Source: an uncultured Lachnospiraceae bacterium (GTDB taxonomy: Bacteria; Bacillota; Clostridia; Lachnospirales; Lachnospiraceae). From it: a stretch of 33,186 bases of DNA. Location of the stretch: positions 1-33,186 of the forward strand of contig CANQBN010000006.1 in the NCBI GenBank assembly GCA_947588855.1, given 5' to 3'. Made by a program: the position numbers and the translations under genes. Positions 14,864 through 28,631 of the stretch are shown here, piece by piece (the first letter of the stretch is position 1; every line of letters starts with the position of its first letter). Below the pieces are notes generated by a model. It did not search any database, was not told the origin of the DNA, and was given only the letters and a program-made list of their open reading frames with translations.

Positions 14864-14927
14864 TATTGCGCCGATGTCCGATCGTTCCGCCAAATGCATG
14901 CCCGATTGCGGCAGCGCGGATTCTGCA

Positions 14928-15860
14928 TTATGCAAATTCCGTCAGATACTTCTCTGCCGAAGCCACCGCATTGGCCCCGTCAGACACGGCCGTTACGATC
15001 TGTCTCAGGGCCTTCGTCCGCACGTCTCCCGCCGCGAAAATGCCCGGCACGGAGGTGGTTCCTGTTTCATCGGCTTTGATATATCCGTGGTCCATTTCCA
15101 CCAGACCCTCAAATATCTGACTGTTTGGAGTGATGCCTACGGCGATAAACACGCCCTGAAGTTCCAGCTCGCTGATCCGACCGGTCTTCTTATTCTGCAG
15201 AGCCACAGCGTTAACCTGGCCCTGACCTTTAATCTCTGTCACTACCGTATCCCAGAGAATCTCCACATTCTCCAGACTCATAAGCTTCTCCTGCAGGCTT
15301 TTGGCTCCGCGCAGTTCGTCCCGGCGGTGAATCAGATATACCATCCGGCAGGCCCTCGCCAGAAATATGGCATCCTCCAGCGCCACATCGCCTCCGCCGA
15401 CCACAGCCACATCCTTATTCCGGAAAAAGGCTCCGTCGCATGTAGCGCAGTAGGAAACGCCCATACCGGCCAGCTCCTCTTCCCCCGGCACGCCCAACTT
15501 CCGATGAACGGCGCCCGTAGCAATGATCACAGCCTTCGCCGCATAAGTTTCATTTTCACAGACAACACGGTTCACTGTCTGAGCGCCCTCTTCCAACCGC
15601 TCCATACATTCCACTTTGTCTGTAACAAAATTCACTCCCAGTTTATCCGCATGTTCCCGAAACTTCATGCCCATATCAAACCCGTTGATTCCCGGCAGTC
15701 CGGGGTAATTATCCACCTCGTAAGTGTTCACCACCTGACCGCCGCTGACGTACTCTTTTTCTATAACAAGAGCATCCAATCTGGCTCTTTCCGCGTAGAT
15801 TCCTGCCGCCAGTCCAGCCGGACCGGAACCAATGATGATCAGATCATACAGCTTATCCAT
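14928..15860 (-). CDS. trxB: Thioredoxin reductase
   Basis: A 310-residue FAD- and NADPH-dependent enzyme that keeps thioredoxin reduced in the cytosol. The FAD-binding GSGPAG is at residues 11-16, the redox-active CATC at 138-141 followed by DG, and the NADPH-binding GGGDVA near 155-160. The C-terminal GIFAAGD motif is also present. I chose the ATG at 15858-15860, with GGAGG 10 bp upstream; the open frame starts 26 codons earlier but those codons cover the promoter-leader region. No thioredoxin gene is adjacent. It has its own promoter, divergent from the SDR gene. Confidence 0.95.
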   Translation of the reverse strand: MDKLYDLIIIGSGPAGLAAGIYAERARLDALVIEKEYVSGGQVVNTYEVDNYPGLPGINGFDMGMKFREHADKLGVNFVTDKVECMERLEEGAQTVNRVVCENETYAAKAVIIATGAVHRKLGVPGEEELAGMGVSYCATCDGAFFRNKDVAVVGGGDVALEDAIFLARACRMVYLIHRRDELRGAKSLQEKLMSLENVEILWDTVVTEIKGQGQVNAVALQNKKTGRISELELQGVFIAVGITPNSQIFEGLVEMDHGYIKADETGTTSVPGIFAAGDVRTKALRQIVTAVSDGANAVASAEKYLTEFA

Positions 15861-15877
15861 ATGTAACTTTCCTCCGC

Positions 15878-15899
15878 CTGTCAGATTTACTGCTGACAG
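15878..15899. promoter_or_regulatory. Inverted repeat over the trxB transcription start, candidate operator
   Basis: CTGTCAG - 8 bp - CTGACAG is a perfect 7-bp-arm inverted repeat. It overlaps the edge of the trxB -10 box and the predicted start point. It could be an operator or an RNA hairpin at the transcript 5' end. Confidence 0.4.
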
Positions 15900-15927
15900 T
15901 ATAACACAAAACATATGAAATATACAA
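15898..15927 (-). promoter_or_regulatory. Promoter of trxB
   Basis: TTGTAT (15922-15927) and TATACT (15898-15903) are 18 bp apart on the minus strand. Confidence 0.55.
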
Positions 15928-15948
15928 ACGAATTCCAATTATGTGTTC

Positions 15949-15977: not shown

Positions 15978-16048
15978 AGGTTCGTCGGAACCATTGCGCT
16001 CTGACGGCAGACAACAATCTGTAAAGCTGCATGTTAAGGAGAATATCC

Positions 16049-16840
16049 ATGTCCGAAAAGACAGTTCTGGTGACTGGCGCCTCCCGGGGAATCGGGAAGG
16101 CCATCGCTCTGAAATTCGCAAAAAATGATTATAATGTGATACTTAACTGTATCCGCAGCGAAACCCTGCTTGCGGAAACGGAAGCCGAGATCAAAGCGAT
16201 ACAGGTCGCCCGTCAGGCTGCCGGAATCGGGCCATCGGACGCTTTATATGGTCCGTCTGATGGCAACCGCTGTCTTTCTTTCGTTGGGGACATGGGGGAT
16301 ATGGCAGCCTGTGAAAAACTGTATGCCCAGATCAAAGAGACGTTCGGGCATCTGGACGTTCTTGTCAACAACGCCGGGATCTCCTATGTAGGACTTCTTC
16401 AGGATATGTCATCTGAGGATTGGGAACGAATCATCCGCACCAATCTGACATCTGTCTTTAATCTGAGCAGACTGGCAATTCCGGACATGGTCTCCCGCAA
16501 ATCCGGCAAAATCATCAACATTTCTTCCGTGTGGGGACAGAAAGGCGCTTCCTGCGAAGTCGCTTACTCCGCTTCCAAAGGCGCTGTCAACGCGTTTACC
16601 AGGGCTCTGGCCAAAGAACTGGCCCCCAGCCATATCCAGGTAAATGCCATAGCATGCGGCGCTATCGACACGGAAATGAATCATTTTTTAAATACCGATG
16701 AACTGCATGCCCTCGCCGATGAGATTCCCGCCGGCCGCCTGGGTACGCCTGAGGAGGCGGCCGACCTGGTCCTTTATCTGGCCCGGGGAAACCAATATCT
16801 GACCGGGCAGGTCATCGGCCTTGACGGAGGATGGATTTAA
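16049..16840 (+). CDS. Short-chain dehydrogenase/reductase (FabG-like)
   Basis: A 263-residue NAD(P)-dependent oxidoreductase. The cofactor motif TGASRGIG is at residues 9-16, NNAG at 107-110, and the catalytic Ser160, Tyr173 and Lys177 (YSASK) are in place. The C-terminus VIGLDGGW is typical of FabG-like enzymes. An insertion of about 25 residues around 51-75, with GPSD occurring twice, is absent from ordinary FabG of about 246 residues. The ATG at 16049 follows AAGGAG. It lies outside any fatty-acid cluster, so I leave it as a general SDR. Its stop touches the next gene's ATG directly. Confidence 0.85.
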   Translation: MSEKTVLVTGASRGIGKAIALKFAKNDYNVILNCIRSETLLAETEAEIKAIQVARQAAGIGPSDALYGPSDGNRCLSFVGDMGDMAACEKLYAQIKETFGHLDVLVNNAGISYVGLLQDMSSEDWERIIRTNLTSVFNLSRLAIPDMVSRKSGKIINISSVWGQKGASCEVAYSASKGAVNAFTRALAKELAPSHIQVNAIACGAIDTEMNHFLNTDELHALADEIPAGRLGTPEEAADLVLYLARGNQYLTGQVIGLDGGWI

Positions 16841-17692
16841 ATGCCCACTACTTACACACATTATCGGTTCGGAACCGACGTATACAAAAAATTACCCCGG
16901 CAGGTACGGCAGGATATCCGGCCGTATCTGGATCTGTTCTGTATCGGCCTCCACGGCCCGGATCTTCTGTTCTATTACAGGGCGCTGTACCGGAACCCGG
17001 TAAACCGCCTTGGCTTTGCCATGCATAAAAAGCCCGGCATGGATTTCTTCTCCACTGCTGCAGATGCGCTGGCTCGACAGGATGTCATTGTCGACGCGGA
17101 CAAACTTTATGAGGAGGATCCGGTTGTCCCACCGGAAGACGCCGCCCCTTCCAGGGCTTACCTGTACGGTTTTTTATGCCATTTTGCCCTGGACAGCAAC
17201 TGCCATCCTTATGTGGAACAGTCTGTGCGGCGCACCGGTATATCACACAGCGAGATTGAAGCGGAGCTGGACCGCCGGTACATGATGATGGACGGCATCG
17301 ACCCCATGTATTATCACCCTACCCGCCATTTCCGGGCGACCCAGAGAAACGCAAGGGTCATTTCCCGTTTCTTCCCCGGCGTCGGCCTCAAAGAGGCGCT
17401 GACCGCCATCCGTTCCGCCCGTTTTTACATAAACCTTCTGACCATCCATTCCCCGGCAGGCCATCGCGTCCTGCGAAAAGGCATGATGCTGATCCACTGT
17501 CCCCGGTCCCTTTACGATATGGTCATGCAGCCCCGCGTTAATCCGGCCTGTGTCCCCATCTGCGACCGGCTGATGAAACACTACGGCGACGCCGTCAAAG
17601 ACGCAGAAGAGCTGATTCTGAACTTTAAAAACCACATAGAAAAAGGCGAGCCTTTGGACGCCCGCCTTGATCATACATTCGGAGAATTCTAA
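16841..17692 (+). CDS. Zinc-dependent phospholipase C family protein
   Basis: A 283-residue protein resembling the alpha-helical zinc-dependent phospholipase C/S1-P1 nuclease-like fold. Candidate metal ligands are His7, HGPD (38-41), His62, the HxxxD pair His114-Asp118 (CHFALDSN), His122, and the HxxxE pair His136-Glu140 (HSEIE). The HxxxD and HxxxE spacings match the ligand pairs of Bacillus cereus PLC. No signal peptide is visible, so unlike the secreted toxins it is probably cytosolic and its substrate is unknown. Its ATG immediately follows the SDR stop, with GGAGG inside the end of that gene. Its stop overlaps the convergent ridA gene by 4 bp. Confidence 0.8.
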   Translation: MPTTYTHYRFGTDVYKKLPRQVRQDIRPYLDLFCIGLHGPDLLFYYRALYRNPVNRLGFAMHKKPGMDFFSTAADALARQDVIVDADKLYEEDPVVPPEDAAPSRAYLYGFLCHFALDSNCHPYVEQSVRRTGISHSEIEAELDRRYMMMDGIDPMYYHPTRHFRATQRNARVISRFFPGVGLKEALTAIRSARFYINLLTIHSPAGHRVLRKGMMLIHCPRSLYDMVMQPRVNPACVPICDRLMKHYGDAVKDAEELILNFKNHIEKGEPLDARLDHTFGEF

Positions 17693-18159
17693 TCTTGTTC
17701 CTCAAGCTCTACCAGAGCTTCCACCTCAACCGGTATATGGTTTGGGAGGGAGCTTACGCCAATTGCGCTTCTGGCAGGGCGACCACAGGGATCACCAAAA
17801 AGCTCCAACAGCAAATCCGTAGCACCGTTAGCCACTTGAGACTGTTGTCCGTAATCTGCAGGCCCGGCTACAAAGACCAACAGCTTTACAAAAGAACGTA
17901 TTTTCCCCAAATCCCCAATTTCTGCCTGAATCGCAGCCAGCATATTGCGGATACAGTTGGCTGCTGCCCTGTAGCCTTCGTCTGTCGTATATTCTTCCGA
18001 CAGCCGTCCCTTCCATGTCTGATCGTCAAGAATCGGCCCGCAACCGGACGCATAGAGAAATTTCCCACCGAACAGCTTCACTACAGCATAACTTCCTCCG
18101 GCTTTCGGAACCTGGGGAAGCTCCACGCAAATCTCCTTTTTTGTTCTATCCTCTGACAT
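17689..18159 (-). CDS. RidA/YjgF-family enamine-imine deaminase
   Basis: A 156-residue member of the RidA superfamily, in the longer subgroup (about 150 residues). GDLGKI, NGATDLLLELFG and RPARSAIGVSSLP...VEVEALVEL are diagnostic. Arg130 in PARSAIG corresponds to the arginine that anchors the carboxylate in active RidA. Such proteins hydrolyse reactive enamine/imine intermediates released by PLP lyases, protecting other PLP enzymes. It is divergent from an operon encoding a PLP ammonia-lyase-like enzyme, which makes that enzyme's product a plausible substrate (inference). It ends 4 bp inside the convergent phospholipase-like gene. Confidence 0.88.
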   Translation of the reverse strand: MSEDRTKKEICVELPQVPKAGGSYAVVKLFGGKFLYASGCGPILDDQTWKGRLSEEYTTDEGYRAAANCIRNMLAAIQAEIGDLGKIRSFVKLLVFVAGPADYGQQSQVANGATDLLLELFGDPCGRPARSAIGVSSLPNHIPVEVEALVELEEQD

Positions 18160-18210
18160 AACAACAAATCCCCTTCCTTTAATACCTTCTTCAACTTGTT
18201 TCCATCTTTT

Positions 18211-18239
18211 ATTCTAGCATATTTCAAATAAATTTTCAA
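18211..18239 (-). promoter_or_regulatory. Promoter of the RidA-family gene
   Basis: TTGAAA (18234-18239) and TAGAAT (18211-18216) are 17 bp apart on the minus strand. Confidence 0.5.
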
Positions 18240-18298
18240 TATTTCCCCATGTATTATAACTTTTTATTGAATTTATTTTATAAATTCAAATTTTTTGT

Positions 18299-18327
18299 TT
18301 GACCATATTAATATATAGTGTTACAAT
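18299..18327 (+). promoter_or_regulatory. Promoter of the YheO-like regulator operon
   Basis: TTGACC (18299-18304) and TACAAT (18322-18327) are 17 bp apart, with the start about 40 nt before the regulator. Confidence 0.6.
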
Positions 18328-18373
18328 ATCCTTATAAATCAATAAAATTGAAATTCATACACTGGAGATTTTG

Positions 18374-19051
18374 ATGAAAACAATTTATGATCAATGGGAT
18401 TTCTGGCAAAAACTTATGGACATGCTGGAATATCAATTCGGTAGCCGATGCGAAATCATTCTCCACGATTTGACAAAGGATTATGAGCACACTATCGTGG
18501 ATATTCGCAATGGTCATATTACGGGCCGCAAGGTTGGAGACTGTGGCAGCAATCTTGGATTGGAAGTTCTGAGAGGCAGCGTAAAGGATGGGGATCGATA
18601 TAACTATGTGGTACACACACCAGATGGCAAAATTCTTCGTTCTTCTACTATGTTCCTTCACAATGATGAAGGAACTGTGATAGGTTCCCTGTGTATCAAT
18701 CTTGATATTACTCAAACGGTTGCGATGGAAGGTTTCCTCCATTCTTACAATGGATATATCCCCGGAGCATCTCCCAGAACAGAACCGGAAATATTTGCCG
18801 GCAACATTAACGACGTCCTGGATTTTTTAATTCATCAGGCTGACAATATGGCCGGTAAAGCACCAAAAGCAATGAACCGAGCCGAAAAAATACGCTTTGT
18901 AGAATATCTTGATCAAAAAGGAGCATTTCTGATCACACGGGCCAGTGACCGCGTATGCGAACACCTTGGCATTTCGCGGTTTACTTTATATAACTATTTG
19001 GATATTTCCAGGCATGAACCCGAAGGAGAATCAACAGATGAACATTTATGA
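18374..19051 (+). CDS. YheO-like PAS/helix-turn-helix transcriptional regulator
   Basis: A 225-residue regulator. Residues about 10-120 match the YheO-like PAS domain (FGSRCEIILHDL near the start, then GSLCINLDIT). Residues about 165-218 are a C-terminal helix-turn-helix of the YheO type (FLITRASDRVCEHLGISRFTLYNYLD). I chose the ATG at 18374 with GGAG 6 bp upstream. The gene overlaps the PLP lyase gene by 14 bp, so it is translated from the same message and probably senses that pathway's substrate. Confidence 0.88.
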   Translation: MKTIYDQWDFWQKLMDMLEYQFGSRCEIILHDLTKDYEHTIVDIRNGHITGRKVGDCGSNLGLEVLRGSVKDGDRYNYVVHTPDGKILRSSTMFLHNDEGTVIGSLCINLDITQTVAMEGFLHSYNGYIPGASPRTEPEIFAGNINDVLDFLIHQADNMAGKAPKAMNRAEKIRFVEYLDQKGAFLITRASDRVCEHLGISRFTLYNYLDISRHEPEGESTDEHL

Positions 19052-20183
19052 AGAATTAAAACTGGATACCATTATCAATGCCAGCGACACCTATACCAGA
19101 CTGGGAGGTTCCCGCATGAGTCATCGTACACTGGATGCCATGCAGGAAGCAGGAGAATCTTTTGTAGACATTACCGAAATGTCCAATGCCATCTGTCGTA
19201 TCATTGCCCGCCGTACAGGCAACGAAACTGCTTTTATCTCATCTGGCGCCGGTGCCTGCGTAGTACTGGCTGCCAGTTCCTGTATTACAGAAGGTAAAAA
19301 AGAACTGGCTGATATGCTGCCGGATGCCGGCAGCTGCAAACGCAATGAAATTATCATCTTTTCTTCTCAGAAAGAATGTGTCATATTACCCTATTGGCGT
19401 TTGATTTCCCTGTCAGGCGCAACTCTGATTCCGGTTGCCGATGATCTTGAAACCCTCAAGGCCGCTATCACTCCGCGAACAGCCGCCATCTTTTTCTTCG
19501 CGGGAACTGTTTATGAATGGACTACACCGGCTCTTTCCCAAATGATCCCAATTGCCCATGAAAAACAAATCCCGGTGATTGTTGATGCCGCGGCACAACT
19601 GCCTTCCAAAAAACTCATGTCCTACTATACAGTGTCCCTAGGCGCGGATGCTGTTATTTTCAGCGGAGGTAAATTCATAAACGGCCCCCAAACCACCGGC
19701 ATCATCCTGGGCAATCATAAAGTTATAGACCCTTGCAGTTATTTGGCCAGTCCAAATGTCCATATTGGCCGGCCCTATAAGGTGGGAAAAGAAGAATACG
19801 CCGGTCTCTATAGAGCCTGCATGGATTTTCTGGACTCCGATGAAACAGCATGCTTCCAGCGCCTGAGAACAATTCTGGAAGAAATCCGCTCTTCTCTCAT
19901 TCCAACCAGCGGCTATCAAAGTCATATCGAAGACTGCGGACGCTTAGGGCAGCAGATTCCAATGCTGTATCTCGATTTTACCGATGGCCGCACGGGGCAG
20001 GAATGTTATGATTTTATGTACGCTTCTCCCGACCGCGTAGATGTGGGTACTTTTGTTGATGGGGATCCTACCGGCGATTGCCACAGAATCTTTATAAATG
20101 CCATCAATTTAAGAGAACCTGATATACCGGTTCTTATCAGAAAATTAAATTCATGGCTCCAAAGGGGAGGGCAAATATCATGA
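19038..20183 (+). CDS. SelA/DgaE-like PLP-dependent ammonia-lyase
   Basis: A 381-residue fold-type I PLP enzyme of the SelA-like group that includes D-glucosaminate-6-phosphate ammonia-lyase DgaE. The opening INASDTYTRLGGSRMS, the PLP-phosphate site SSGAGA (69-74), Asp183 in VDAAAQLPS and Lys212 in FSGGKFINGPQTTG (the Schiff-base lysine) all fit. Known relatives eliminate ammonia from 2-amino-2-deoxy sugar acids to give 2-keto-3-deoxy acids. The ATG has AAGGAG 10 bp upstream, inside the preceding gene. It overlaps the next gene by 4 bp (ATGA). The substrate is inferred; L-seryl-tRNA selenium transferase activity is unlikely because the length and neighbours do not fit. Confidence 0.85.
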   Translation: MNIYEELKLDTIINASDTYTRLGGSRMSHRTLDAMQEAGESFVDITEMSNAICRIIARRTGNETAFISSGAGACVVLAASSCITEGKKELADMLPDAGSCKRNEIIIFSSQKECVILPYWRLISLSGATLIPVADDLETLKAAITPRTAAIFFFAGTVYEWTTPALSQMIPIAHEKQIPVIVDAAAQLPSKKLMSYYTVSLGADAVIFSGGKFINGPQTTGIILGNHKVIDPCSYLASPNVHIGRPYKVGKEEYAGLYRACMDFLDSDETACFQRLRTILEEIRSSLIPTSGYQSHIEDCGRLGQQIPMLYLDFTDGRTGQECYDFMYASPDRVDVGTFVDGDPTGDCHRIFINAINLREPDIPVLIRKLNSWLQRGGQIS

Positions 20184-21271
20184 ACATGCCGGTAAAAGTA
20201 CGCTATTATGACTCAAAAACCAATTCATTCCGCAACGGTATTCTGACCAATGAGGATAGTCATTTCAGAGTCATTTTTACTAATGATGGACCGGCAGAAA
20301 CGGATCTTTTCCTGAGCCCCGGGTGGATCGATATGCACACGCATATCCTGGATGGATTCGGCCTGTTTGGAACAGAAGCCGACCGTATCGGCTGGAAAAC
20401 CGGAGTCTGCCTGGTAGCAGACGCGGGAACTGTAGGAGAATACACATTAGCCGGATATATGAAATATGTCGCTCCAACCATTGAAACAAATGTAAAACTG
20501 TTTTTATGCATCAGCCCTATCGGGGTAATATTTCATCACGATTATAATGCAATGCAATATCTGGATGCTGACCGGTGCGCTGCCTGTATCCTGAAGCACC
20601 CTGATCTGATCGCCGGAGTGAAAGTCCGCATGGGCAGCGAAACCATACGTCACGAAGGCCTCAAACCCCTGCAGCTGGCCAGTCAGGCTGCACGAAAAGC
20701 GGGAGTCCCGATGATGGTGCACATTGGAGGCAATCCTCCCGCCTTAAAGGATATGGAACCCTTTTTTGAGAAAGGAGACATTATTACTCATGTTTTTAAC
20801 GGAAGAGGACATGATGCCTGGAATCCTGACGGCACTCCATCCGCTCCCCTGCAAAAACTTATCGACCGCGGCGTCTGGCTGGATATCGGACACGGAAGCA
20901 GCAGCTTTGACTTCGAAGTTTTTGAGCGCGCTATTCGCCATCCCCTGCCCCGGTATCTGATGGGTACCGACCTCCACCAGAGTTCTGTCAAAAAGCTGGT
21001 CCGCAATATGAATGTCATGCTTACCAAAATATACGGCTGCGGCGTTCCTCTTGAAAATATAATCTATGGAGTCACAGCCGGCCCGGCAGATGCCCTCGGC
21101 CTTACAGAATGGTGTAATATGGATCCTATTGTTCAGGCAACATTATTCCGCATAATAGATCATACAGAAGAATACGAAGACTGCCAGGGAAACCGCCGCA
21201 CTTTCACCAAGTCAATTCAGGCAGAAGCCGTGATTCTTAACGGAGTCTTACGCCGTCTGGCCAACAGCTAA
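20180..21271 (+). CDS. Amidohydrolase/deacetylase-family metallohydrolase (cog3964-like)
   Basis: A 363-residue member of the amidohydrolase superfamily with a full binuclear metal site: His53 and His55 (DMHTH), Lys148 (bridging, normally carboxylated), His181, His204 and Asp264 (MGTDLH). The sequence resembles Atu3266/EF0837-type proteins, often misnamed dihydroorotase or adenine deaminase. In Enterococcus the EF0837 type is encoded next to a SelA-like protein, as here. Relatives hydrolyse N-acyl or O-acyl substituents of small hydroxy acids. The ATG overlaps the PLP-lyase stop (ATGA) behind AAGGGGAGGG. I infer it deacylates the substrate of the lyase. Its end overlaps the convergent IclR gene by 4 bp. 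Confidence 0.87.
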   Translation: MNMPVKVRYYDSKTNSFRNGILTNEDSHFRVIFTNDGPAETDLFLSPGWIDMHTHILDGFGLFGTEADRIGWKTGVCLVADAGTVGEYTLAGYMKYVAPTIETNVKLFLCISPIGVIFHHDYNAMQYLDADRCAACILKHPDLIAGVKVRMGSETIRHEGLKPLQLASQAARKAGVPMMVHIGGNPPALKDMEPFFEKGDIITHVFNGRGHDAWNPDGTPSAPLQKLIDRGVWLDIGHGSSSFDFEVFERAIRHPLPRYLMGTDLHQSSVKKLVRNMNVMLTKIYGCGVPLENIIYGVTAGPADALGLTEWCNMDPIVQATLFRIIDHTEEYEDCQGNRRTFTKSIQAEAVILNGVLRRLANS

Positions 21272-22050
21272 AAACTGAATTCCGCGTTCTCCAAGAGTCT
21301 TTCCAACCGAATTTGCGATTCTCGGAGAATGCGGATCACGGTTGATTCTTTTTCGGGACTGTATCGGAATGTAGGAAGCGCAACACTCATAGCTGCAATT
21401 ACACTTCCATTCCGACGGATAGGAACCGCGATACAACGAACAAACTGTGTTGACTCCTCGCATTCAAACGCTAACCCATTCCGTCGTATCTCTTCCAGTT
21501 GGAAACAAAGCTGATCGATATTGGTAATCGTATACGGCGTCAACGGACGAAGCCCTTTCGGATAAAGATTTATGACCTCTTCCTTGGTTTTCCCAGACAA
21601 AAGCGCTTTCCCCAGTCCGGTAGCATAAGCCGGCAGCCTCTCACCGGGAGACACAACCGACCGAACCGTTTCGTTAGAATCGACACGGTACAGATAAAAT
21701 ACATCTCCGCCTACCAGCTGAGCAAAATAACAGGTTTCACCACAGGCATCCACATTAGCTCGCATCTGACTCTGTATATCGATAGTCAATCCTCCGCGGC
21801 GAATATAAACATTTCCGATTTCATACGCTTTATAACCAATAGAATATCGTCCGGTATCTTCATTGACAGAAAGCATATGGCATCTGCACAGAGTATGTAC
21901 AATAGGAAGCAAACTGCTCTTAGGTGCCTGCAACGCCTGAGCCAATTCTGTGAGCGTCATTCCATTCGGCTGACCCTCGCCAAGATGCTCCAGTATCTCA
22001 ATCACACGGCGAGTAGCACGGTGATTATCTTCTTTAGGCGCTACTTTCAT
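21268..22050 (-). CDS. IclR-family transcriptional regulator
   Basis: A 260-residue regulator with an N-terminal winged HTH (residues about 12-70, MTLTELAQALQAPKSSLLPIVHTL). A C-terminal effector domain follows (about 80-255), with GERLPAYATGLGKALLSG and CIAVPIRRNGSVIAAMSVALP typical of IclR/KdgR proteins. It sits just downstream of the kinase end of the sugar-acid operon and has its own promoter. IclR proteins of the KdgR type respond to 2-keto-3-deoxygluconate, so it probably controls the dgoD operon and the aldolase gene (inference). The ATG follows AAAGGGG. Confidence 0.92.
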   Translation of the reverse strand: MKVAPKEDNHRATRRVIEILEHLGEGQPNGMTLTELAQALQAPKSSLLPIVHTLCRCHMLSVNEDTGRYSIGYKAYEIGNVYIRRGGLTIDIQSQMRANVDACGETCYFAQLVGGDVFYLYRVDSNETVRSVVSPGERLPAYATGLGKALLSGKTKEEVINLYPKGLRPLTPYTITNIDQLCFQLEEIRRNGLAFECEESTQFVRCIAVPIRRNGSVIAAMSVALPTFRYSPEKESTVIRILRESQIRLERLLENAEFSF

Positions 22051-22074
22051 AATATTTCCCCTTTCTGCGTCTAT

Positions 22075-22103
22075 ATTCTATACGTTTTTTTCAAATTACG
22101 CAA
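22075..22103 (-). promoter_or_regulatory. Promoter of the IclR regulator
   Basis: TTGCGT (22098-22103) and TAGAAT (22075-22080) are 17 bp apart on the minus strand, directly after the terminator of the upstream operon. Confidence 0.5.
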
Positions 22104-22111
22104 GCGAAATC

Positions 22112-22156
22112 AGAAGAAAACGCTGCCTGATTCACAAATCAGACAGCGTTTCTTCT
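22112..22156 (-). terminator. Terminator of the dgoD-ABC-kinase operon
   Basis: On the minus strand AGAAGAAACGCTGTCTGATT pairs with AATCAGGCAGCGTTTTCTTCT over about 20 bp around TGTG, followed by T-rich sequence. The one imperfect position is a G-U wobble only on this strand, giving its orientation. It lies 18 bp after the kinase stop. Confidence 0.8.
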
Positions 22157-22173
22157 AAAAAATTCTACAAATT

Positions 22174-23196
22174 CTATCTCTGAACCCGTCCTGAACCGTT
22201 TCCTTCAGCTAAAGCTTTCACTTCCGCTGCAGAAACCAAGTTAAAATCATGTTCAATACTATGCTTCAGACAAGAAGCTGCCGTTGCAAAATCAATAACC
22301 TTTTGATCATCATAACCATTCAAAAGTCCATAAATCAATCCGCCGCCAAAACTGTCTCCGCCGCCAACACGGTCCACAATATGTACCCGATATACTGGTG
22401 AAAAATACGCTGTCCCTTCACTATACAGCATACCGGCCCAATCATTGTCCGAAGCGGATATACTTCCTCTCAGAGTGATTGCCACTTTTCTAAAACCAAA
22501 CCTGTCTGTCAGCTGTCGCGCCACCTGAATATAGCCTTCCCGGTTAATCTGTCCCGCATCCAAATCTGTATCTGCTGCCTCGATTCCAAACACGTCTTTC
22601 GCATCTTCTTCATTGGCGATACACACATCTACATAAGGGGCCAGCTCCGCCATAATTTTTCCGGCCTTTTCTCTGCTCCACAGTTTTTTTCTATAATTTA
22701 AATCACAGCTGACAGTTACTCCCAATTTTCTGGCCGTCTTACACGCATCCAAACATATCTGCGGCAAGTTACCTCCGAGTGCCGGGGTAATTCCTGTCCA
22801 ATGAAACCAATCGGCGCTTTCCAAAATCCGTTCCCAATCAAAATCCGACGGTTCTGCCAGAGCAATTGCCGAACCCGCCCGATCATAAATCACTTTTGAA
22901 GCCCTCTGGGACGCTCCCTTTTCAACATAATACAGTCCCAATCGGTTTCCTCCGCGAACAATATAACTGGTATCCACACCATAGCGGCGCAGTTCATTAA
23001 CTGCACACTGACCAATCTCATGGGATGGCAGTTTTGTAACAAACACAGTATTCATTCCATAATTAGCCAATGACACCGCTACATTAGCTTCTCCTCCGGC
23101 ATAAGTTACCTCTAAACGCTCGGCCTGAACAAGACGCAGATAATTTTCCGGATTCAAGCGCATCATAATCTCTCCAAACGTAACAATTTTCCCCAT
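22174..23196 (-). CDS. kdgK: 2-dehydro-3-deoxygluconokinase (PfkB family)
   Basis: A 340-residue ribokinase-fold sugar kinase that would phosphorylate 2-keto-3-deoxygluconate or -galactonate with ATP. It begins GKIVTFGEIMMRLNPEN, has the substrate loop YAGGEANVAVSLANYG (residues 32-47), and the anion-hole/catalytic motif DRVGGGDSFGGGLIYG with Asp281. Genetic linkage to a galactonate-type dehydratase upstream and a KDPG-type aldolase nearby supports this substrate over fructose or ribose. It is the last gene of the operon, followed by a strong terminator. Confidence 0.9.
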   Translation of the reverse strand: MGKIVTFGEIMMRLNPENYLRLVQAERLEVTYAGGEANVAVSLANYGMNTVFVTKLPSHEIGQCAVNELRRYGVDTSYIVRGGNRLGLYYVEKGASQRASKVIYDRAGSAIALAEPSDFDWERILESADWFHWTGITPALGGNLPQICLDACKTARKLGVTVSCDLNYRKKLWSREKAGKIMAELAPYVDVCIANEEDAKDVFGIEAADTDLDAGQINREGYIQVARQLTDRFGFRKVAITLRGSISASDNDWAGMLYSEGTAYFSPVYRVHIVDRVGGGDSFGGGLIYGLLNGYDDQKVIDFATAASCLKHSIEHDFNLVSAAEVKALAEGNGSGRVQR

Positions 23197-23209
23197 ACCT
23201 TTCCCTCCT

Positions 23210-24046
23210 TTATCCTTTCACTGCACCCTGAGTCATACTGCTGATAAAATACCGCTGCAGGAATATAAACAGGAGCACCACCGGAAGACTGGAGAGCAGG
23301 GAAGCCGCCATTAAATCGTTCCACATGATTTTGTCAAAACTAGCCATCTGTCCGATTGCTACCGGCAGTGTTTTCATCTTATCAGAGGTAATACACAGCA
23401 TACTAAACATATACTCATTCCAGCTTTGAATAAACGCATAAATCGTTGTTGAAACCAAGCCGGGAAGTGTAAGCGGTGCTACGATCATATAGAATGTTTT
23501 TATGTGCCCGCAGCCGTCAATACGCGCAGAATCATCCAATTCTCTGGAAATGCTGTTAAAAAATCCATACATCATCCAGGAGCAGAACGGAATCACACTG
23601 GCGATATGAACCAAAATGATTCCGCGGCGTGAATTGGCCATGCCATAGATAGTTAATAACTTATAATATGGAACAAACAGCATAACTGCCGGAAACATTT
23701 GGGTCACAAGAATAAACATCATGATCATCCCGCGGCCTCTGAACTGAAATCTGGAAAACCCGTATCCAGCCAACGTTGAAAACAGAACTGCTATCAATGT
23801 TGAAGAGCCTGATATCAAAATACTGTTCTTCAAATAGGTAAAGAACGGATAATCCGTAATGACATTTTCATATCCTTCAAATGAAATCTGACGGGGAAAC
23901 AGCGTAACCACCGGACTCATCATAATCTCGCTAATCGATTTCAATGAAGTGGAGGCCATGTAAATAATGGGAATAAGTACCATAAGACTTCCAAATATCA
24001 ATCCCACATAACACAGAATATCGATTCGTCGTTCTGATTTATTCAT
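23210..24046 (-). CDS. Sugar ABC transporter permease (MalG type)
   Basis: A 278-residue inner-membrane subunit of a CUT1 carbohydrate importer, with about six hydrophobic helices. The EAA loop that contacts the ATPase is DDSARIDGCGHIKTFYMIVAPLTLPG, with the conserved G of ARIDG. It overlaps the partner permease by 8 bp and precedes the kinase by 13 bp. No ATP-binding subunit is encoded nearby, as is usual for CUT1 systems that share an MsmK-type ATPase. Confidence 0.93.
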   Translation of the reverse strand: MNKSERRIDILCYVGLIFGSLMVLIPIIYMASTSLKSISEIMMSPVVTLFPRQISFEGYENVITDYPFFTYLKNSILISGSSTLIAVLFSTLAGYGFSRFQFRGRGMIMMFILVTQMFPAVMLFVPYYKLLTIYGMANSRRGIILVHIASVIPFCSWMMYGFFNSISRELDDSARIDGCGHIKTFYMIVAPLTLPGLVSTTIYAFIQSWNEYMFSMLCITSDKMKTLPVAIGQMASFDKIMWNDLMAASLLSSLPVVLLFIFLQRYFISSMTQGAVKG

Positions 24047-24938
24047 CTCTTAGCATCCTCCTCTGAAAAATACTGATCACCACACAGATCAGGAATACAA
24101 CAACGGCCAACGCCGCAGAAGGTCCAAAATCAAAGAAGGAAAATGCCCTCTTATAAATATCCATGGCAATGGTATTGGTAGCCCCGTTTGGTCCTCCCTG
24201 AGTCAACAGCCAGATCATGGTTACATGTTTAAACCACCAGACCACATCCAAAATCAACGTAACCACAAAAGTCGATCTCATGCTTGGTATCGTCACATAC
24301 CAGAAAGACTGTGCTCTGGAAGCGCCATCAATTCTGGCAGCCTCTACGATATCATGCGGTACTGTCTGAAGGCCTGCCAAAAGCTGAATCATCACTAACG
24401 GATACCCCTTCCACACACAGATAAAAATCAGCGTGGGAAGCGCAAGCTTCGGTGAACCCAGCCAGGATATCGGTTTATCTAAAAGTCCTGAGGATACCAT
24501 CATACTGTTTAGAAAACCCATCGTTGGATTAAATATCCATCTCCATAAATTCGCTACCACTACTTCCGGAAACAGCCAGGGAAGAAGCAATACTGCTCTG
24601 AAAAACGTTCTTCCCTTTATATTACGATTCAGCATGACAGCAAACAGAAGGCCGAATAAAAAATGTCCTCCTACGACTCCTAAAGTAAACTGTACTGTTG
24701 TCACCATGCTGTTAAAGAAATCCTCATCCGTCAAAACAGTCACATAATTCTTCAGTCCTACAAAGCTCCATTTATTTACCAGATTCGTTTTAAAAAAGCT
24801 GATATAAATTCCATAACAAAACGGATATAAAAGCAGCAGGGCCAGTACCAGAACTGCCGGCGTCACGAAGCCATAGGGCGTTATCCCCTTTTTCATACGA
24901 TGATATACTACACCCGCTTGTTTTTTCAAATTATCCAC
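24039..24938 (-). CDS. Sugar ABC transporter permease (MalF/UgpA type)
   Basis: A 299-residue membrane subunit with six predicted helices and the EAA loop EAARIDGASRAQSFWYVTIPSM. It pairs with the MalG-type subunit, which starts 8 bp before it ends. A stable hairpin separates it from the upstream binding-protein gene, a common way to make more binding protein than permease. The expected substrate is a sugar acid or glycoside, judged from the operon. Confidence 0.93.
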   Translation of the reverse strand: MDNLKKQAGVVYHRMKKGITPYGFVTPAVLVLALLLLYPFCYGIYISFFKTNLVNKWSFVGLKNYVTVLTDEDFFNSMVTTVQFTLGVVGGHFLFGLLFAVMLNRNIKGRTFFRAVLLLPWLFPEVVVANLWRWIFNPTMGFLNSMMVSSGLLDKPISWLGSPKLALPTLIFICVWKGYPLVMIQLLAGLQTVPHDIVEAARIDGASRAQSFWYVTIPSMRSTFVVTLILDVVWWFKHVTMIWLLTQGGPNGATNTIAMDIYKRAFSFFDFGPSAALAVVVFLICVVISIFQRRMLRDE

Positions 24939-24962
24939 CCCTTCTATGATTCCCTATGACCA

Positions 24963-25001
24963 GACAGGACCCGGCTGTTTTCAAGCAGACCGGGTCCTGC
25001 C
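24963..25001 (-). terminator. Intercistronic hairpin after the binding-protein gene
   Basis: CAGGACCCGG and CCGGGTCCTG pair over 10 bp, with a further CTG/CAG after a one-base bulge, on the minus strand. No T-run follows, so it is more likely an mRNA stabiliser or partial attenuator than a full terminator. Confidence 0.6.
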
Positions 25002-25016
25002 ATTTATTCGCGAACT

Positions 25017-26387
25017 TTATCCCTCATTCGCCTTGTCACAAATCTCCTGCGCTCTCTCCTGTGCCTTCGCAGCAGCCTCTTCTACGGTAGCCTCGCCTGT
25101 AAATACAGACTGATATGCCTGTCCATGAACGTCCTGAATCTCCGTATATCCTGGAATATTCGGTGTCTGGATAATCGTCTGCCTGGCCTGAAGGAATCCA
25201 GCCAGTTCTGGCATTTCCATCACAGAAGGATCTTCCAGGGCTTCATTTCTGGTTGGCAAACGTCCGGTCAAAACTGAAAATTCAATTTCTCTGTCTTTCT
25301 CCAGCATAAAGCGAATAAACTCAGCAGATTCAGCCTCATGTTTTCCCGGGCTGATGAAGAAGCCAAAACCACCCGGAGTACTTACGGAACGCTCCACCTT
25401 GGGAATCGGGAAGGATCCAAGCTTTCCTTTCAGTTCCGGAACCTGAGAAGTAATTGCGCCAATTGCATTGGAACCTGTAATCAGCATAGCCGCTTTACCT
25501 GACGAAAATAAATTAACGGCTGTTGCATAATCGGTTTCAATAACACCAGGCGGGCAAGTATGATACGTCACATCCAAATCCGTATAGGCTCTGAGTGCGT
25601 CAATATATTTCTGAGAACCTACATCTGTGGTCCACTTTCCATCATCACCCAGGATGAATTCATCCACACCAAAGTTTCTAAGAACATATTGGAAACGTCC
25701 TGCTCCAGAACCGTTATTCGCGCCAACCAGGGTCATTCCATATCGATCTCCTTCCGTCAACGCTTTGGAAACCTCAATCAGTTCATCCCATGTGGTTGGA
25801 GTGGAAAGTCCCTTCTCGTCAAAGAAATCCTTGCGGTAAACAATACCATTAGCTCCGCCAAACCACGGAATCGCGTAAGGTACGCCATCTACACTGGCAA
25901 AGGATAAACTGGCTTCCTCAAAACCGTTCACATATTCCTCACCATAAATAGGAATCACTTCTGCAGCAAGACCCATATCCACAATTGTAGGCGTGTCCAA
26001 AAGGTCCGCCATGAAGAAATCCGGCATACTATTAGAAGTGGCCAGCGTAATATACCTCTTCATCAGGTCATTCGCGCTCAATCCTTCTACTTCTACATGG
26101 ATTCCATTGTCAAGAGCGTTAAACTCATCAATACATTTCTGTTCAAAATCTCCTTCCGGTGATTCCAGAATTGTGGATGAAATGTAAGTAATCGTTACTT
26201 CTTCGCCAGAAGCGGCAGCCTCTGTTTCAGCAGCCTCTGTCTCTGCCTCCGCCTCTGCTGCAGCAGCCGTTTCAGACGCGGCAGTTCCAGCAGCGGGTTC
26301 CTGATTCGATTGTCCGCCACCACAGCCAGCCAAAGTCACAACCGCCATAGCAATAGTCAAACCTATCGCCAATTCTCTTCTTAACAT
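25017..26387 (-). CDS. Sugar ABC transporter substrate-binding lipoprotein
   Basis: A 456-residue extracellular solute-binding protein. The signal peptide ends in the lipobox LAGC with Cys22 as the lipidated residue. A flexible Ala/Glu/Thr-rich linker follows (residues about 33-63), typical of Lachnospiraceae lipoproteins. The mature domain has the type 1 binding fold signatures: DFFMADLLDTPTIVDMGL, VPYAIPWFGGANGIVYRKDFFDEKG and TPTTWDELIE. The ATG follows GGAGGAG. It is the second gene of the operon, 38 bp after dgoD. The ligand cannot be read from sequence. Confidence 0.93.
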   Translation of the reverse strand: MLRRELAIGLTIAMAVVTLAGCGGGQSNQEPAAGTAASETAAAAEAEAETEAAETEAAASGEEVTITYISSTILESPEGDFEQKCIDEFNALDNGIHVEVEGLSANDLMKRYITLATSNSMPDFFMADLLDTPTIVDMGLAAEVIPIYGEEYVNGFEEASLSFASVDGVPYAIPWFGGANGIVYRKDFFDEKGLSTPTTWDELIEVSKALTEGDRYGMTLVGANNGSGAGRFQYVLRNFGVDEFILGDDGKWTTDVGSQKYIDALRAYTDLDVTYHTCPPGVIETDYATAVNLFSSGKAAMLITGSNAIGAITSQVPELKGKLGSFPIPKVERSVSTPGGFGFFISPGKHEAESAEFIRFMLEKDREIEFSVLTGRLPTRNEALEDPSVMEMPELAGFLQARQTIIQTPNIPGYTEIQDVHGQAYQSVFTGEATVEEAAAKAQERAQEICDKANEG

Positions 26388-26425
26388 TTGCTTTCTCCTC
26401 CTTTTATATACTTACTTGCTACTGC

Positions 26426-27577
26426 CTACCACTCAATAGGTGTCCCGTCATAGGTTGTCCAAATTGGATTCTTCCAGTTATGACGGTTCTTATCCTGTTC
26501 TTTTACAAGCTCCTCATCAACCTCAATCCCTAATCCCGGACCGGATGGAATTTGAACAAAACCCTGTAAAAATTGAAATACCTCTTTATTTTTAATAAAA
26601 TTCATACACGGATTCGACGCTGAAGCATCATGAACATTTATACTCTGTTCCTGCATAATTACGTTAGGCGTAACCGAGTCCAGCTGAATACAGGATGAAA
26701 ACGCTATGGCATCCAAAGGACAATGAGGCGCCACAGCCATATCATAAGCTTCGGCCATAGCTGCAATCTTTCTGACCTCGCTGATTCCCCCCGCATGAGA
26801 CAAATCCGGCTGGATAATGTCTGCATACCCCTGTTCAAACAATGTTTTGTAATCCCAGCGGTTATACATCCTCTCCCCGATTGCGATTGGAGATGACGTA
26901 TATCGGGCTACTTCTCGCAGTGCTTCCATGTTCGTAGGCAATACCGGTTCTTCCACAAACAGCGGATGATATCGATCCAGTTCTTTTACCAGAACTTTTG
27001 CCATTGGCTTATGAATACGCCCATGGAAATCGATGGCCCAATCCGCTCTTCCTTTAACTGCGCTATAGATAGCATCGATTTTTTCCAGCAGCTTATCAAC
27101 TCCGCTCCAGGAATCTACATAGTGCGTAGGATCTGTAGGCGATGTCTTAATAACTGTGTATCCATCCTCAATCGCTTTCTTTGCATCCGCCGCCAGTTCT
27201 TCCGGCGTATCTCCATGAATACTGCGATAGACCTTCACACGATCCTTCACTCTGCCTCCCAGCATCTCATAAACCGGCATATTATAATAATGTCCCTTCA
27301 GATCCCACAATGCTTCGTCAATACCGGCGATAGTACTCATCATGACGGGACCTCCCCGATAAAAGGCACATCGATACATGGTCTGCCAGTGTTTCTCAAT
27401 TGTTAACGGATTCTCACCGATAAAGTAGTCTTTCCACTCCTCTACCGCAGCCTTTAACGTGGCTGCACGTCCTTCTACCAGAGGCTCTCCCCATCCACTG
27501 ATGCCTTCATCCGTTTCAATTTTCAAAAACAGGAATCTATGCGGCATAAAATACAGTTTCATATCCGTGATTTTCAC
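26426..27577 (-). CDS. dgoD: D-galactonate dehydratase-type enolase superfamily enzyme
   Basis: A 383-residue enolase-superfamily acid-sugar dehydratase, closely resembling Escherichia coli DgoD over its whole length. The family residues fall at the same positions: metal ligands Asp183, Glu209 and Glu235 and catalytic His185 and His285 (DFHGR, VEEPV, GERM, APHCPL). It would dehydrate D-galactonate, or a related aldonate, to 2-keto-3-deoxygalactonate. It is the first gene of the operon with the transporter and kinase, under a strong promoter. Related dehydratases act on gluconate or mannonate, so the exact stereoisomer should be treated as likely, not proven. Confidence 0.92.
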   Translation of the reverse strand: MKITDMKLYFMPHRFLFLKIETDEGISGWGEPLVEGRAATLKAAVEEWKDYFIGENPLTIEKHWQTMYRCAFYRGGPVMMSTIAGIDEALWDLKGHYYNMPVYEMLGGRVKDRVKVYRSIHGDTPEELAADAKKAIEDGYTVIKTSPTDPTHYVDSWSGVDKLLEKIDAIYSAVKGRADWAIDFHGRIHKPMAKVLVKELDRYHPLFVEEPVLPTNMEALREVARYTSSPIAIGERMYNRWDYKTLFEQGYADIIQPDLSHAGGISEVRKIAAMAEAYDMAVAPHCPLDAIAFSSCIQLDSVTPNVIMQEQSINVHDASASNPCMNFIKNKEVFQFLQGFVQIPSGPGLGIEVDEELVKEQDKNRHNWKNPIWTTYDGTPIEW

Positions 27578-27612
27578 TTTTCAACACCTCCCTTCTGTAT
27601 TGTTCTTAATAC

Positions 27613-27624
27613 GGAACTGCTTCC
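27613..27624. promoter_or_regulatory. GGAA-CTGC-TTCC palindrome downstream of the dgoD promoter, candidate operator
   Basis: GGAACTGCTTCC lies between the predicted dgoD transcription start and its ribosome binding site, flanked by AATA and TATT in approximate dyad symmetry. This is a suitable site for IclR-type repression. It occurs once, so it is only a candidate. Confidence 0.35.
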
Positions 27625-27644
27625 TTTATTTCGGTCACATTTCC

Positions 27645-27673
27645 ATCATATATCATATAACAAGAATTGTCAA
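27645..27673 (-). promoter_or_regulatory. Promoter of the dgoD operon
   Basis: Consensus TTGACA (27668-27673) and TATGAT (27645-27650) are exactly 17 bp apart on the minus strand, about 70 bp before dgoD. Confidence 0.75.
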
Positions 27674-27778
27674 CAAAAAATTTTATTTTTCACCGTAATC
27701 ATTTAATATATTACACAAAATATTTGAAATTTTCGCTAGATTTCAGTTTAAATTCTTTTTATTTTTTTCAATATCCCA

Positions 27779-27808
27779 TTGACATTTCTCCTCATATATG
27801 ATTATAAT
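27779..27808 (+). promoter_or_regulatory. Promoter of the aldolase gene
   Basis: Consensus TTGACA (27779-27784) and consensus TATAAT (27803-27808) are 18 bp apart. The start is near 27815, giving a leader of about 50 nt. Confidence 0.75.
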
Positions 27809-27867
27809 GTAGAAAAATAAAACATTGTCCTTATATACGAACCAAATATAGGAAAGGCAGGTTATGT

Positions 27868-28518
27868 ATGGATACACTATCTGAGATCAAAAAAAAGAAA
27901 ATCATTACCATTGTAAGGGGATTGTCGCTTGAAGATACTCTGAATGCTGTCGCCGCTGTAATAGCAGGCGGACTGAACGCCATTGAGGTTACCTATTGTC
28001 AGAATCAGGAAGATATAAAGACTATAGATATCATACACGCTTTAAATGAGACCTTCGGTTCCGATATCCTGTTGGGGGCCGGAACTGTTATGACCATGAA
28101 TCAACTCCAGTCTGCATATCAAGCCGGAGCAAAATATATCATTTCACCACATACTGACATTACACTGATCCATGAGACAAAACAAATGGGACTGATTTCC
28201 ATTCCAGGGGCTTATACCGCCAGCGAAATCGTTTCCTGCTATGCCGCAGGCGCAGATATTATCAAAGTATTTCCAGCTGAAACCGGAGGCCCCGAATACA
28301 TAAAAGCGCTCCGTTCCCCCTTGGCACATATTCCATTGGCTGCTGTCGGCGGTGTGAATCTGAACAATATTAACGATTTCTTCAAAGCAGGTGTCTGTTG
28401 TGTCGGAATCGGTTCCAATATTATAGACAAGCAGGCGGTTTCCAAAAGGAACTTTCAAAAGATTCGGGAACTCAGCGCTGCCTATGCAGTCACGGTAGCT
28501 GCGAATAATCCTGCTTAA
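27868..28518 (+). CDS. 2-dehydro-3-deoxy-6-phosphogluconate/galactonate aldolase
   Basis: A 216-residue class I aldolase that cleaves KDPG or KDPGal to pyruvate and glyceraldehyde-3-phosphate. IVRG (Arg17), AIEVTY with Glu40, LLGAGTV and the Schiff-base Lys133 in ADIIKVFPAE are conserved. GGV and GIGS near 161-183 form the phosphate site. It is divergent from the dgoD operon across 290 bp and completes that pathway. An upstream out-of-frame ATG (27864) precedes the true start at 27868. Sequence does not separate Eda from DgoA specificity. Confidence 0.93.
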   Translation: MDTLSEIKKKKIITIVRGLSLEDTLNAVAAVIAGGLNAIEVTYCQNQEDIKTIDIIHALNETFGSDILLGAGTVMTMNQLQSAYQAGAKYIISPHTDITLIHETKQMGLISIPGAYTASEIVSCYAAGADIIKVFPAETGGPEYIKALRSPLAHIPLAAVGGVNLNNINDFFKAGVCCVGIGSNIIDKQAVSKRNFQKIRELSAAYAVTVAANNPA

Positions 28519-28570
28519 ATATATCTCATTGCCAATATCTGTTAATCAAAGCTTCATACAGCAAAAATAA

Positions 28571-28602
28571 TCGGGGTTGTTCGCAAAAGCTTACAGCCCC
28601 GA
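28571..28602. terminator. Bidirectional terminator between the aldolase gene and glmS
   Basis: TCGGGGTTGT and ACAGCCCCGA pair over 10 bp, with a wobble on the plus strand, around a 12-nt loop. On the minus strand the hairpin is followed by TTATTTTTG, and on the plus strand T-rich sequence follows at a distance. It lies between the two convergent stops. Confidence 0.7.
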
Positions 28603-28631
28603 CACTTATTCTCTATCCGATTTTATTTTCT

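Follow-up and report, generated by a model that had tools for sequence, protein, structure and literature searches.

An acquired gene island in a Lachnospiraceae bacterium and its possible role in the catabolism of N-acyl-hexosaminates and galactonate

D-Galactonate is degraded through the De Ley-Doudoroff pathway, which is encoded by dgoD, dgoK and dgoA. For an amino-sugar acid, the closest described system is the ong cluster of Pseudoalteromonas prydzensis, in which N-acetylglucosaminate is deacetylated (OngB), deaminated to 2-keto-3-deoxygluconate (KDG) (OngC) and phosphorylated (KdgK) with no prior phosphorylation; the deacetylase, the pyridoxal 5′-phosphate (PLP)-dependent deaminase, a RidA protein (OngD) and KdgK are all essential, the role of OngD being stated there as unknown (PMC9537276). 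The pathway was described in marine Gammaproteobacteria, and some ong clusters add kdgA (PMC9537276); by its structure, OngB is a D-aminoacylase-like enzyme (PMC12017989). In this study, we analysed a window of 33,186 nt, which is the whole of contig CANQBN010000006.1 of an uncultured Lachnospiraceae bacterium (assembly GCA_947588855.1; 3.1 Mb, 294 contigs). It carries an 11-gene island that is one acquired unit and that we interpret, with moderate confidence, as serving the catabolism of oxidised sugar acids of the galactose or glucose type, in which a route for an N-acyl-hexosaminate and one for galactonate would be joined.

On our reading the island would work like the ong pathway but is not a member of it, its two core enzymes being non-orthologous and drawn from other families. 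The two would share deacylation, PLP-dependent deamination to a 2-keto-3-deoxyhexonate without prior phosphorylation and the action of a KDG kinase, which in the island is a predicted one, and both have a RidA gene within the cluster. In contrast, OngB is of the D-aminoacylase type and OngC of PLP fold-type III, their counterparts in the island being a cog3964 amidohydrolase and a DgaE-like lyase of fold-type I; the island has an ATP-binding cassette (ABC) importer instead of an SSS transporter and YheO and IclR instead of MurR/RpiR regulators, and it lacks a hexosaminidase and adds DgoD (PMC9537276). With the DgaE-type system the island shares a homologous PLP lyase of the same fold with the same Schiff-base lysine, the known product there being a 2-keto-3-deoxy acid; unlike that system, its lyase is without arginines 301, 332 and 346 and His162/His163, it has no phosphotransferase system (PTS), its kinase would act after the lyase rather than a PTS before it, and its aldolase is Eda-type rather than DgaF-type (PMC9529869). 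For the chitinase clusters of Natrarchaeobius, a figure legend names four members that have a match in the island, namely a DgaE-like lyase, a galactonate dehydratase, an IclR regulator and, where the island has its Rid-type protein, one of the RutC family; unlike the island, these clusters are archaeal and carry chitinases and a CE14 deacetylase, and a phosphorylated glucosaminate intermediate is proposed for them (PMC12343721). The De Ley-Doudoroff pathway is matched by a DgoD over its curated cut-off, a KDPG-type aldolase and, in the Hungatella version described below, DgoK; the window differs from it in its PfkB-type kinase, the joined deacylase-lyase module, the ABC importer and the IclR-type regulator.

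One acquired unit and its counterpart in Hungatella

The island genes span 17689-28518, between a left flank with secA, prfB, thioredoxin-reductase-like genes and a gene for a zinc-dependent phospholipase C (ZnPLC) and a right flank with glmS and glmM. From left to right they encode RidA (−), a YheO-type regulator (+), the DgaE-like PLP enzyme (+), the amidohydrolase (+), an IclR regulator (−), a PfkB kinase (−), two ABC permeases (−), a binding protein (−), DgoD (−) and a KDPG-type aldolase (+). An earlier reading of the sequence by itself (the original prediction) had described ten clustered genes at nearly the same coordinates; the cluster and every family named in it were found there by profile matches, but the genes number 11, and ridA had gone unnamed. 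GC content at third codon positions (GC3) was 0.38-0.50 throughout the 11 genes; the eight further window genes for which it was measured had 0.56-0.65. In the glmM region of ten same-genus genomes fetched, ZnPLC was the window gene nearest GlmS on that side in all ten, and none had island genes between the two. In L196 and L197, which are the closest of these relatives (GlmM 95% identical), the gap between ZnPLC and GlmS was 15 and 21 bp; it was 46-564 bp in seven further genomes and 2.5 kb in L200, where its content was left unannotated. Homology of the window to L196/L197 ends at 17693-17694 and restarts at 28629-28633. The clean insertion, the distinct GC3 and the empty site in relatives demonstrate that the cluster is one acquired unit and more than a chance adjacency. 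Family scans found no integrase among the island genes, and no junction-spanning or terminal repeat pair was present among the repeats listed. The dgoD gene had no match at E ≤ 1e-80 in 24 of the 25 other genomes of the genus, the sole match being a 40% identical homologue, and of 299 genomes of the family that were examined, two had the amidohydrolase at E ≤ 1e-100, namely that of the window itself and that of Hungatella. A short-chain dehydrogenase/reductase (SDR) gene at 16031-16840 was considered as a pathway member and rejected, as it exists in island-free relatives and has flank-like GC3; it is still counted for the window in the co-occurrence tallies below.

The same block is present in Hungatella hathewayi (L057) and H. 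effluvii (L058), where nine genes (YheO-lyase-amidohydrolase / IclR-permease-permease-binding protein-DgoD / aldolase) keep their order and orientation between different neighbours. Protein identity to the island is 70-83%, and 58% for the aldolase. The Hungatella clusters are without the PfkB kinase and carry, after the aldolase, a 2-keto-3-deoxy-galactonokinase of the DgoK family (PF05035, 120 and 123 bits against a cut-off of 25). A swap of kinase type within one cluster is what a shared function predicts, and the family of the Hungatella kinase points to a galacto-configured intermediate.

The lyase, the deacylases and their neighbours

The lyase is an aminotransferase class V/SelA-like fold-type I enzyme (AlphaFold2 model with a pLDDT of 85.9; nearest PDB structures 7lc0 and 8t7j) that scores 137.6 against a cut-off of 600 with NF047797. 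Its PLP lysine, Lys212, is kept in all 94 aligned lyases. At the columns of R301, R332 and R346 it has Met, Gly and Ile, and Thr-Val is aligned with His162/His163. Six relatives picked by His162, His163 and Arg346, here termed canonical, form one tree clade; arginine stands at all three modelled phosphate positions in 6/6 of them and in 0/88 others, the window lyase having none of the three. Judged by these residues, it is a DgaE relative and not DgaE itself, and because the three arginines that would hold the 6-phosphate in the model are all missing, its likely substrate is a free sugar acid, which fits the ABC importer, the in-cluster kinase and RidA. The original prediction had described this enzyme as SelA/DgaE-like; its scores with the SelA and the DgaE model both stay below cut-off, and it is without the modelled phosphate-binding arginines. 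His163 is the proton donor thought to prevent enamine release in DGL. Its loss was considered as a general explanation of the need for RidA and rejected, since 16 of the 88 other lyases have an aligned His, among them those of the RidA-linked actinobacterial loci L063, L069, L075, L077, L089 and L111, as well as L135. The window lyase has no His163, and the six canonical lyases (selected for having it) are without RidA nearby; a link between His163 and RidA may hold for single clades.

The amidohydrolase has 8wzy, 2ogj and 2ics as relatives, and its H53, H55, K148, H181, H204 and D264 are invariant in four homologues. The metal ligands and catalytic Asp of the cog3964/EF_0837 group follow the pattern HxH, Lys, His, His, Asp, which these residues match. 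Relatives in cog3964 are R-selective deacylases acting on N-acyl or O-acyl alpha-carboxylates. A second, 28% identical cog3964-type amidohydrolase is encoded elsewhere in the window's own genome (G000:C207:3344-4009; L055).

Co-occurrence was counted around the best 80 of 496 confirmed lyase relatives, so that prevalence is a lower bound; with further loci these gave 91 loci and, at 75% identity, 64 representatives (58 other, 6 canonical). L032, L037 and L036 (duplicates of L057, L082 and L078) and the second copies L118 and L130 were dropped before counting, and L057 represents both Hungatella loci. Neighbours within 9 kb were taken as stop-to-stop open reading frames (ORFs) with profiles; the greedy gene calls are weak in high-GC genomes, and the absence of a neighbour is weak evidence at some loci, which are short. 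Near the 58 non-canonical lyases we found RidA at 17, the cog3964 amidohydrolase at 16, a D-aminoacylase-type deacylase at 11 (either deacylase at 26), an SDR at 18 (one being the window's flanking SDR), an MR-subgroup dehydratase at 10 and KDG kinase plus Eda aldolase at 6. KDG kinase plus Eda occurred at 6/17 RidA-positive and 0/41 RidA-negative loci (P = 3e-4 by Fisher's test, which ignores phylogeny, with family profiles built from the counted loci); leaving out the window, the counts were 5/16 and 0/41 (P = 1e-3). These six loci (the window, L063, L069, L075, L089 and L133) fall into three separate clades of the lyase tree, and RidA is present in all of them and a deacylase in five, the cog3964 type only in the window and the other family in the rest. 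As a background, the window's genome has three matches to the island kinase in 3.1 Mb, its own included, and by a rough estimate an 18-kb stretch would contain one by chance in about 2% of cases. A deacylase was found at 14/17 RidA-positive against 12/41 RidA-negative loci (P = 3e-4), an association driven by the D-aminoacylase type (9/17 against 2/41), and an MR dehydratase at 6/17 against 4/41 (P = 0.03). No RidA lies near any of the six canonical lyases. In the annotated canonical loci L039 (8824-12090) and L041 (7992-11636), a KDGP aldolase, a PRD-type regulator and DUF4310/4311/4312 proteins, which may be parts of an unrecognised PTS-like importer, stand by the lyase.

Particular loci fill in this picture. 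L133, from a Clostridia metagenome-assembled genome, has consecutive genes for deacylase, lyase, SDR, lactonase, RidA, Eda aldolase and KDG kinase, which by their families could together oxidise a sugar, open the lactone, deacylate, carry out the elimination, hydrolyse the enamine, phosphorylate and cleave; its deacylase reaches 208 bits with D-aminoacylase as against 193 with PpOngB. Next after Hungatella in the lyase tree is a clade from the window's own genus (G013, L033 4564-13773; G002, L034), with a cluster of YheO, RidA, D-aminoacylase-type deacylase, lyase (about 40% identical to the window's), Gfo/Idh and ABC genes and an adjoining SMP-30 type lactonase gene. The following clade has six members, four of which (L059, L066, L134 and L106; Lachnospiraceae/Bacillota) have an SDR, a 7-bladed lactonase, a GlcNAc-2-epimerase-like protein, ABC genes and two RidA matches each, L059 adding a D-aminoacylase-type deacylase and L066 and L106 a cog3964 one; in the remaining two loci, L065 and L035, no RidA was seen. 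From their gene content, these four clusters are candidates for an oxidative N-acetylhexosamine route with its own dehydrogenase step. The deacylase family thus varies among the sister clusters while lyase and RidA mostly stay, and these clusters strengthen the amino-sugar reading. In the Defluviitaleaceae locus L078, a gene for a DgoD over cut-off is divergent from the adjoining lyase gene, on whose opposite flank stands ridA; together with the archaeal chitinase clusters, as their figure legend lists them (PMC12343721), this means that the pairing of lyase and DgoD is not confined to the window's lineage. The outcome that would have refuted the original prediction, deacylase-lyase pairs that never meet the other enzymes, did not arise: other genomes, too, have such pairs near a KDG kinase, a KDPG aldolase or a dehydratase of the MR subgroup. 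The neighbourhood comparison it had proposed did return a recurring lyase, kinase and aldolase, but the distant kinase-plus-aldolase loci have a D-aminoacylase-type deacylase where one is present, and Hungatella has DgoK.

On plasmids, 218 records hold homologues of the lyase, all below 60% identity; in six such loci examined, a Rid-family neighbour was seen in two and an annotated KDG kinase or KDPG aldolase in none. A Paraburkholderia plasmid (L212, 6506-11927) carries RidA-IclR-lyase-porin-GntP permease; as GntP permeases are of the gluconate type, this arrangement also points to a sugar acid. On a Haladaptatus plasmid (L210, 3416-6778) the lyase homologue is near a mannonate dehydratase and a PIG-L family deacetylase, so that these lyases may have deacylase partners of yet a third kind. 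Two divergent lyase copies occur in L118 (8675-11107, adjacent) and in L130 (1686-6978, about 5 kb apart).

Other island genes and their regulation

Table 1. Features of the island, with positions in the window
Feature	Position	Strand	Evidence
Whole acquired island	17694..28628 (ends approximate to a few bases)		Homology breakpoints, low GC3, empty site in relatives
RidA/YjgF-family protein, predicted enamine/imine deaminase	17689..18159	−	PF01042 51 bits, PF14588 45 bits
YheO-like PAS and helix-turn-helix regulator	18371..19051	+	PF08348 120 bits, PF13309 74 bits
DgaE-like fold-type I PLP lyase, without modelled phosphate-binding arginines	19038..20183	+	TIGR01437 147 bits (cut-off 385.3)
cog3964-type amidohydrolase, predicted N-acyl-D-hexosaminate deacylase	20180..21271	+	PRK09237 267 bits (cut-off 371), TIGR03583 (EF_0837) 243 bits (cut-off 432)
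IclR-family regulator	21268..22050	−	PF01614 124 bits; BhcR/KdgR models under cut-off
PfkB-type kinase, predicted 2-keto-3-deoxyhexonate kinase	22174..23196	−	PF00294 139 bits
ABC sugar permease 2	23210..24046	−	PF00528 62 bits
ABC sugar permease 1	24039..24938	−	PF00528 87 bits
ABC solute-binding protein	25017..26387	−	PF01547 120 bits
D-galactonate dehydratase DgoD	26426..27577	−	PRK14017 564 bits (cut-off 311); 3rr1 421 bits
Imperfect operator-like palindrome GTTCTTAATACGGAAC	27602..27617		Before dgoD; read by eye in alignment
Operator-like palindrome GTCCTTATATACGAAC	27827..27842		Before aldolase gene; 1 mismatch to GTTCNTATATANGAAC
KDPG/KDPGal-type class I aldolase	27868..28518	+	PF01081 127 bits; TIGR01182 167 bits (cut-off 156)

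The ridA gene overlaps the flanking ZnPLC gene by 4 bp at its 3′ end. Its product has the ARS motif (GRPARSAIG) with the conserved active-site Arg130 and scores 27.5 bits with TIGR00004, under the cut-off of 106.25; this arginine is reported to be essential for imine hydrolysis in RidA (PMC4433059). The YheO-like regulator is 74% identical in Hungatella and 59-60% identical to those beside the lyases of G013/G002. The PfkB kinase is closest to KDG-kinase models, under their cut-offs (NF041633, 590 bits against 700; NF041332, 250 against 440). DgoD has the motif residues D183, H185, E209, E235 and H285, which we take to serve acid/base and metal roles. The aldolase passes the general eda model and reaches 154 against 207 with the DgoA model PRK09140. 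The importer (23210-26387) consists of two permeases and a binding protein, with no ATPase gene among the 11 island genes; presumably an ATPase common to the genome serves it. Deriving the substrate from the binding protein was given up, as its PDB relatives are too diverse and bind many sugars.

The YheO gene overlaps the lyase gene, whose stop overlaps the start of the amidohydrolase gene (ATGA), so that these three genes look like one operon; the minus-strand genes from dgoD to the IclR gene look like another. The dgoD-aldolase intergenic region has two GTTCNTATATANGAAC-like palindromes in all three genomes (the window and two Hungatella), with two exact copies of GTTCNTATATANGAAC in each Hungatella region; GTTCTTAATACGGAAC was not among the matches with up to two mismatches. 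An 18-nt inverted repeat common to two AT-rich intergenic regions may be due to chance. One operator common to both modules was sought and not found. As the palindrome is absent before the YheO gene, the two halves are probably regulated separately, and this is the main reason why our confidence in the joint pathway is held at a moderate level.

Outside the island, a long plus-strand ORF without a Pfam match (14874-15866) overlaps a minus-strand ORF (14928-15938) that matches pyridine-nucleotide-disulphide oxidoreductases; the latter is probably the real gene.

Proposed pathway and competing explanations

We infer the reactions, their substrates and the use of one kinase and one aldolase by both branches as follows. 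The ABC system would import an acidic sugar, and the cog3964 amidohydrolase would take the N-acyl group off an N-acyl-D-hexosaminate (a 2-acylamino-aldonate, that is, an R-configured N-acyl amino acid) to give a D-hexosaminate. The DgaE-like lyase would eliminate the C3 hydroxyl and, with release of ammonia, lead to an enamine/imine, whose hydrolysis to the free 2-keto-3-deoxyhexonate RidA would aid. DgoD would convert D-galactonate into 2-keto-3-deoxygalactonate, a product of the same class, and so join the route. The PfkB kinase (DgoK in Hungatella) would phosphorylate the 2-keto-3-deoxyhexonate, and the aldolase would cleave the phosphorylated product into pyruvate and glyceraldehyde-3-phosphate. 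As to the configuration of the substrate, the DgoD and DgoK families would argue for the galacto series and the ong precedent for the gluco series. We tentatively put forward, as a possibility short of our favoured conclusion, that the island serves N-acetyl-D-galactosaminate (oxidised GalNAc), with a phosphate-independent DgaE branch and RidA leading to 2-keto-3-deoxy-D-galactonate, so that oxidised galactose and GalNAc would be used via one intermediate. Among the papers listed by searches of an open-access library, outside which most subscription papers lie, none describes, by title or the start of its abstract, bacterial N-acetylgalactosaminate catabolism or, in Firmicutes, the use of amino-sugar acids by a DgaE-like lyase together with a deacylase, RidA and a KDG kinase; such absence is weak evidence.

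It is also conceivable, though rather unlikely in our view, that two unrelated modules moved as one piece, namely a D-galactonate operon (IclR, kinase, ABC, DgoD, aldolase) and an N-acyl-D-amino-acid-type operon (RidA, YheO, lyase, amidohydrolase). The separate regulators and the want of a common operator agree with this, as does the YheO-RidA-deacylase-lyase cluster of G013/G002, with no DgoD, kinase or aldolase match in the 20 kb fetched; but lyase, kinase and aldolase recur together in three lyase clades, a galactonate dehydratase over cut-off stands beside the lyase in L078, and both modules are together in Hungatella between different neighbours. On another, improbable reading, no sugar takes part, and the lyase, amidohydrolase and RidA turn N-acyl derivatives of small D-amino acids, such as D-serine or D-threonine, into 2-keto acids. 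Both YheO-type regulators and RidA have links to D-amino acids, and the R-selectivity of cog3964 relatives would suit such substrates. OngC, too, is active on D-serine and D-threonine (PMC9537276), but the RidA-linked lyases neighbour KDG kinase, KDPG aldolase, SDRs, lactonases, GlcNAc-epimerase-like proteins and sugar ABC genes.

Two further explanations concern the lyase itself. Lachnospiraceae are anaerobes, and both the window's host and the Hungatella hosts belong to this family, which makes it very improbable that the PLP enzyme is oxygen-dependent like Cap15, although Cap15 is structurally as close as the lyase; moreover, no nucleoside-antibiotic gene is among the 11 island genes, and the neighbouring kinase and aldolase use keto-deoxy acids. 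The classical Dga route, with 6-phosphorylated D-glucosaminate as the lyase substrate, is scarcely credible here: DgaE is the best-matching named family and the cog3964 family also lies near 4/6 canonical lyases, but the window lyase has 0/3 modelled phosphate-binding arginines, the island lacks a PTS and a DgaF-type (PF07071) aldolase, and it has an ABC importer and a kinase that would be redundant in such a route.

The joint route for an N-acyl-hexosaminate and galactonate, which we prefer, has a number of observations standing against it. Each half has a regulator of its own, module A (YheO, lyase, amidohydrolase) as well as module B (IclR, ABC, DgoD, aldolase), and the operator-like palindrome was not found before the YheO gene. 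The window's GlmM is 78% identical to that of Hungatella, about as similar as the island proteins, so that conservation alone is no proof of selection for linkage, and shared ancestry and transfer are inseparable by identity alone. PfkB kinase homologues lie elsewhere in H. hathewayi (53% and 35% identical), and RidA, absent from the Hungatella clusters, has a 46% identical copy elsewhere in that genome. Besides the neglect of phylogeny in the Fisher values, the cog3964 family is not enriched with RidA (5/17 against 11/41, P = 0.54), its presence near canonical phosphate-type lyases means that it is no marker of a free-acid route, the association of deacylase with KDG kinase plus Eda reaches only P = 0.06, and one of the six canonical loci, L044, has a KDG kinase match. 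The amidohydrolase, lyase, kinase, RidA and binding protein all score under the NCBIfam cut-offs of named functions. The scheme of the original prediction, with deacylase and lyase as well as DgoD feeding kinase and aldolase, nevertheless survives the co-occurrence test and equals ong chemistry, although among the loci examined a cog3964 amidohydrolase accompanies both a PfkB-type kinase and an aldolase only in the window. Its joint unit exists as one island, but with halves under separate regulators and no common operator found; nothing in the analysis shows host or plant glycans, which it suggested, to be the source.

If the joint route is true, the ong-type strategy, in which an oxidised amino sugar is treated as a D-amino acid, would have arisen two or more times, each time out of other enzyme families, and would extend past the Gammaproteobacteria to groups that include Lachnospiraceae and Actinobacteria. 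A predicted function would be gained for a large branch of the DgaE-like lyases and for one cog3964 amidohydrolase, and a question raised by the ong pathway, why RidA is essential though the PLP enzyme already yields a keto acid, would become testable. The pairing of the deacylase-lyase module with DgoD/DgoK suggests galacto-configured amino-sugar acids as a nutrient.

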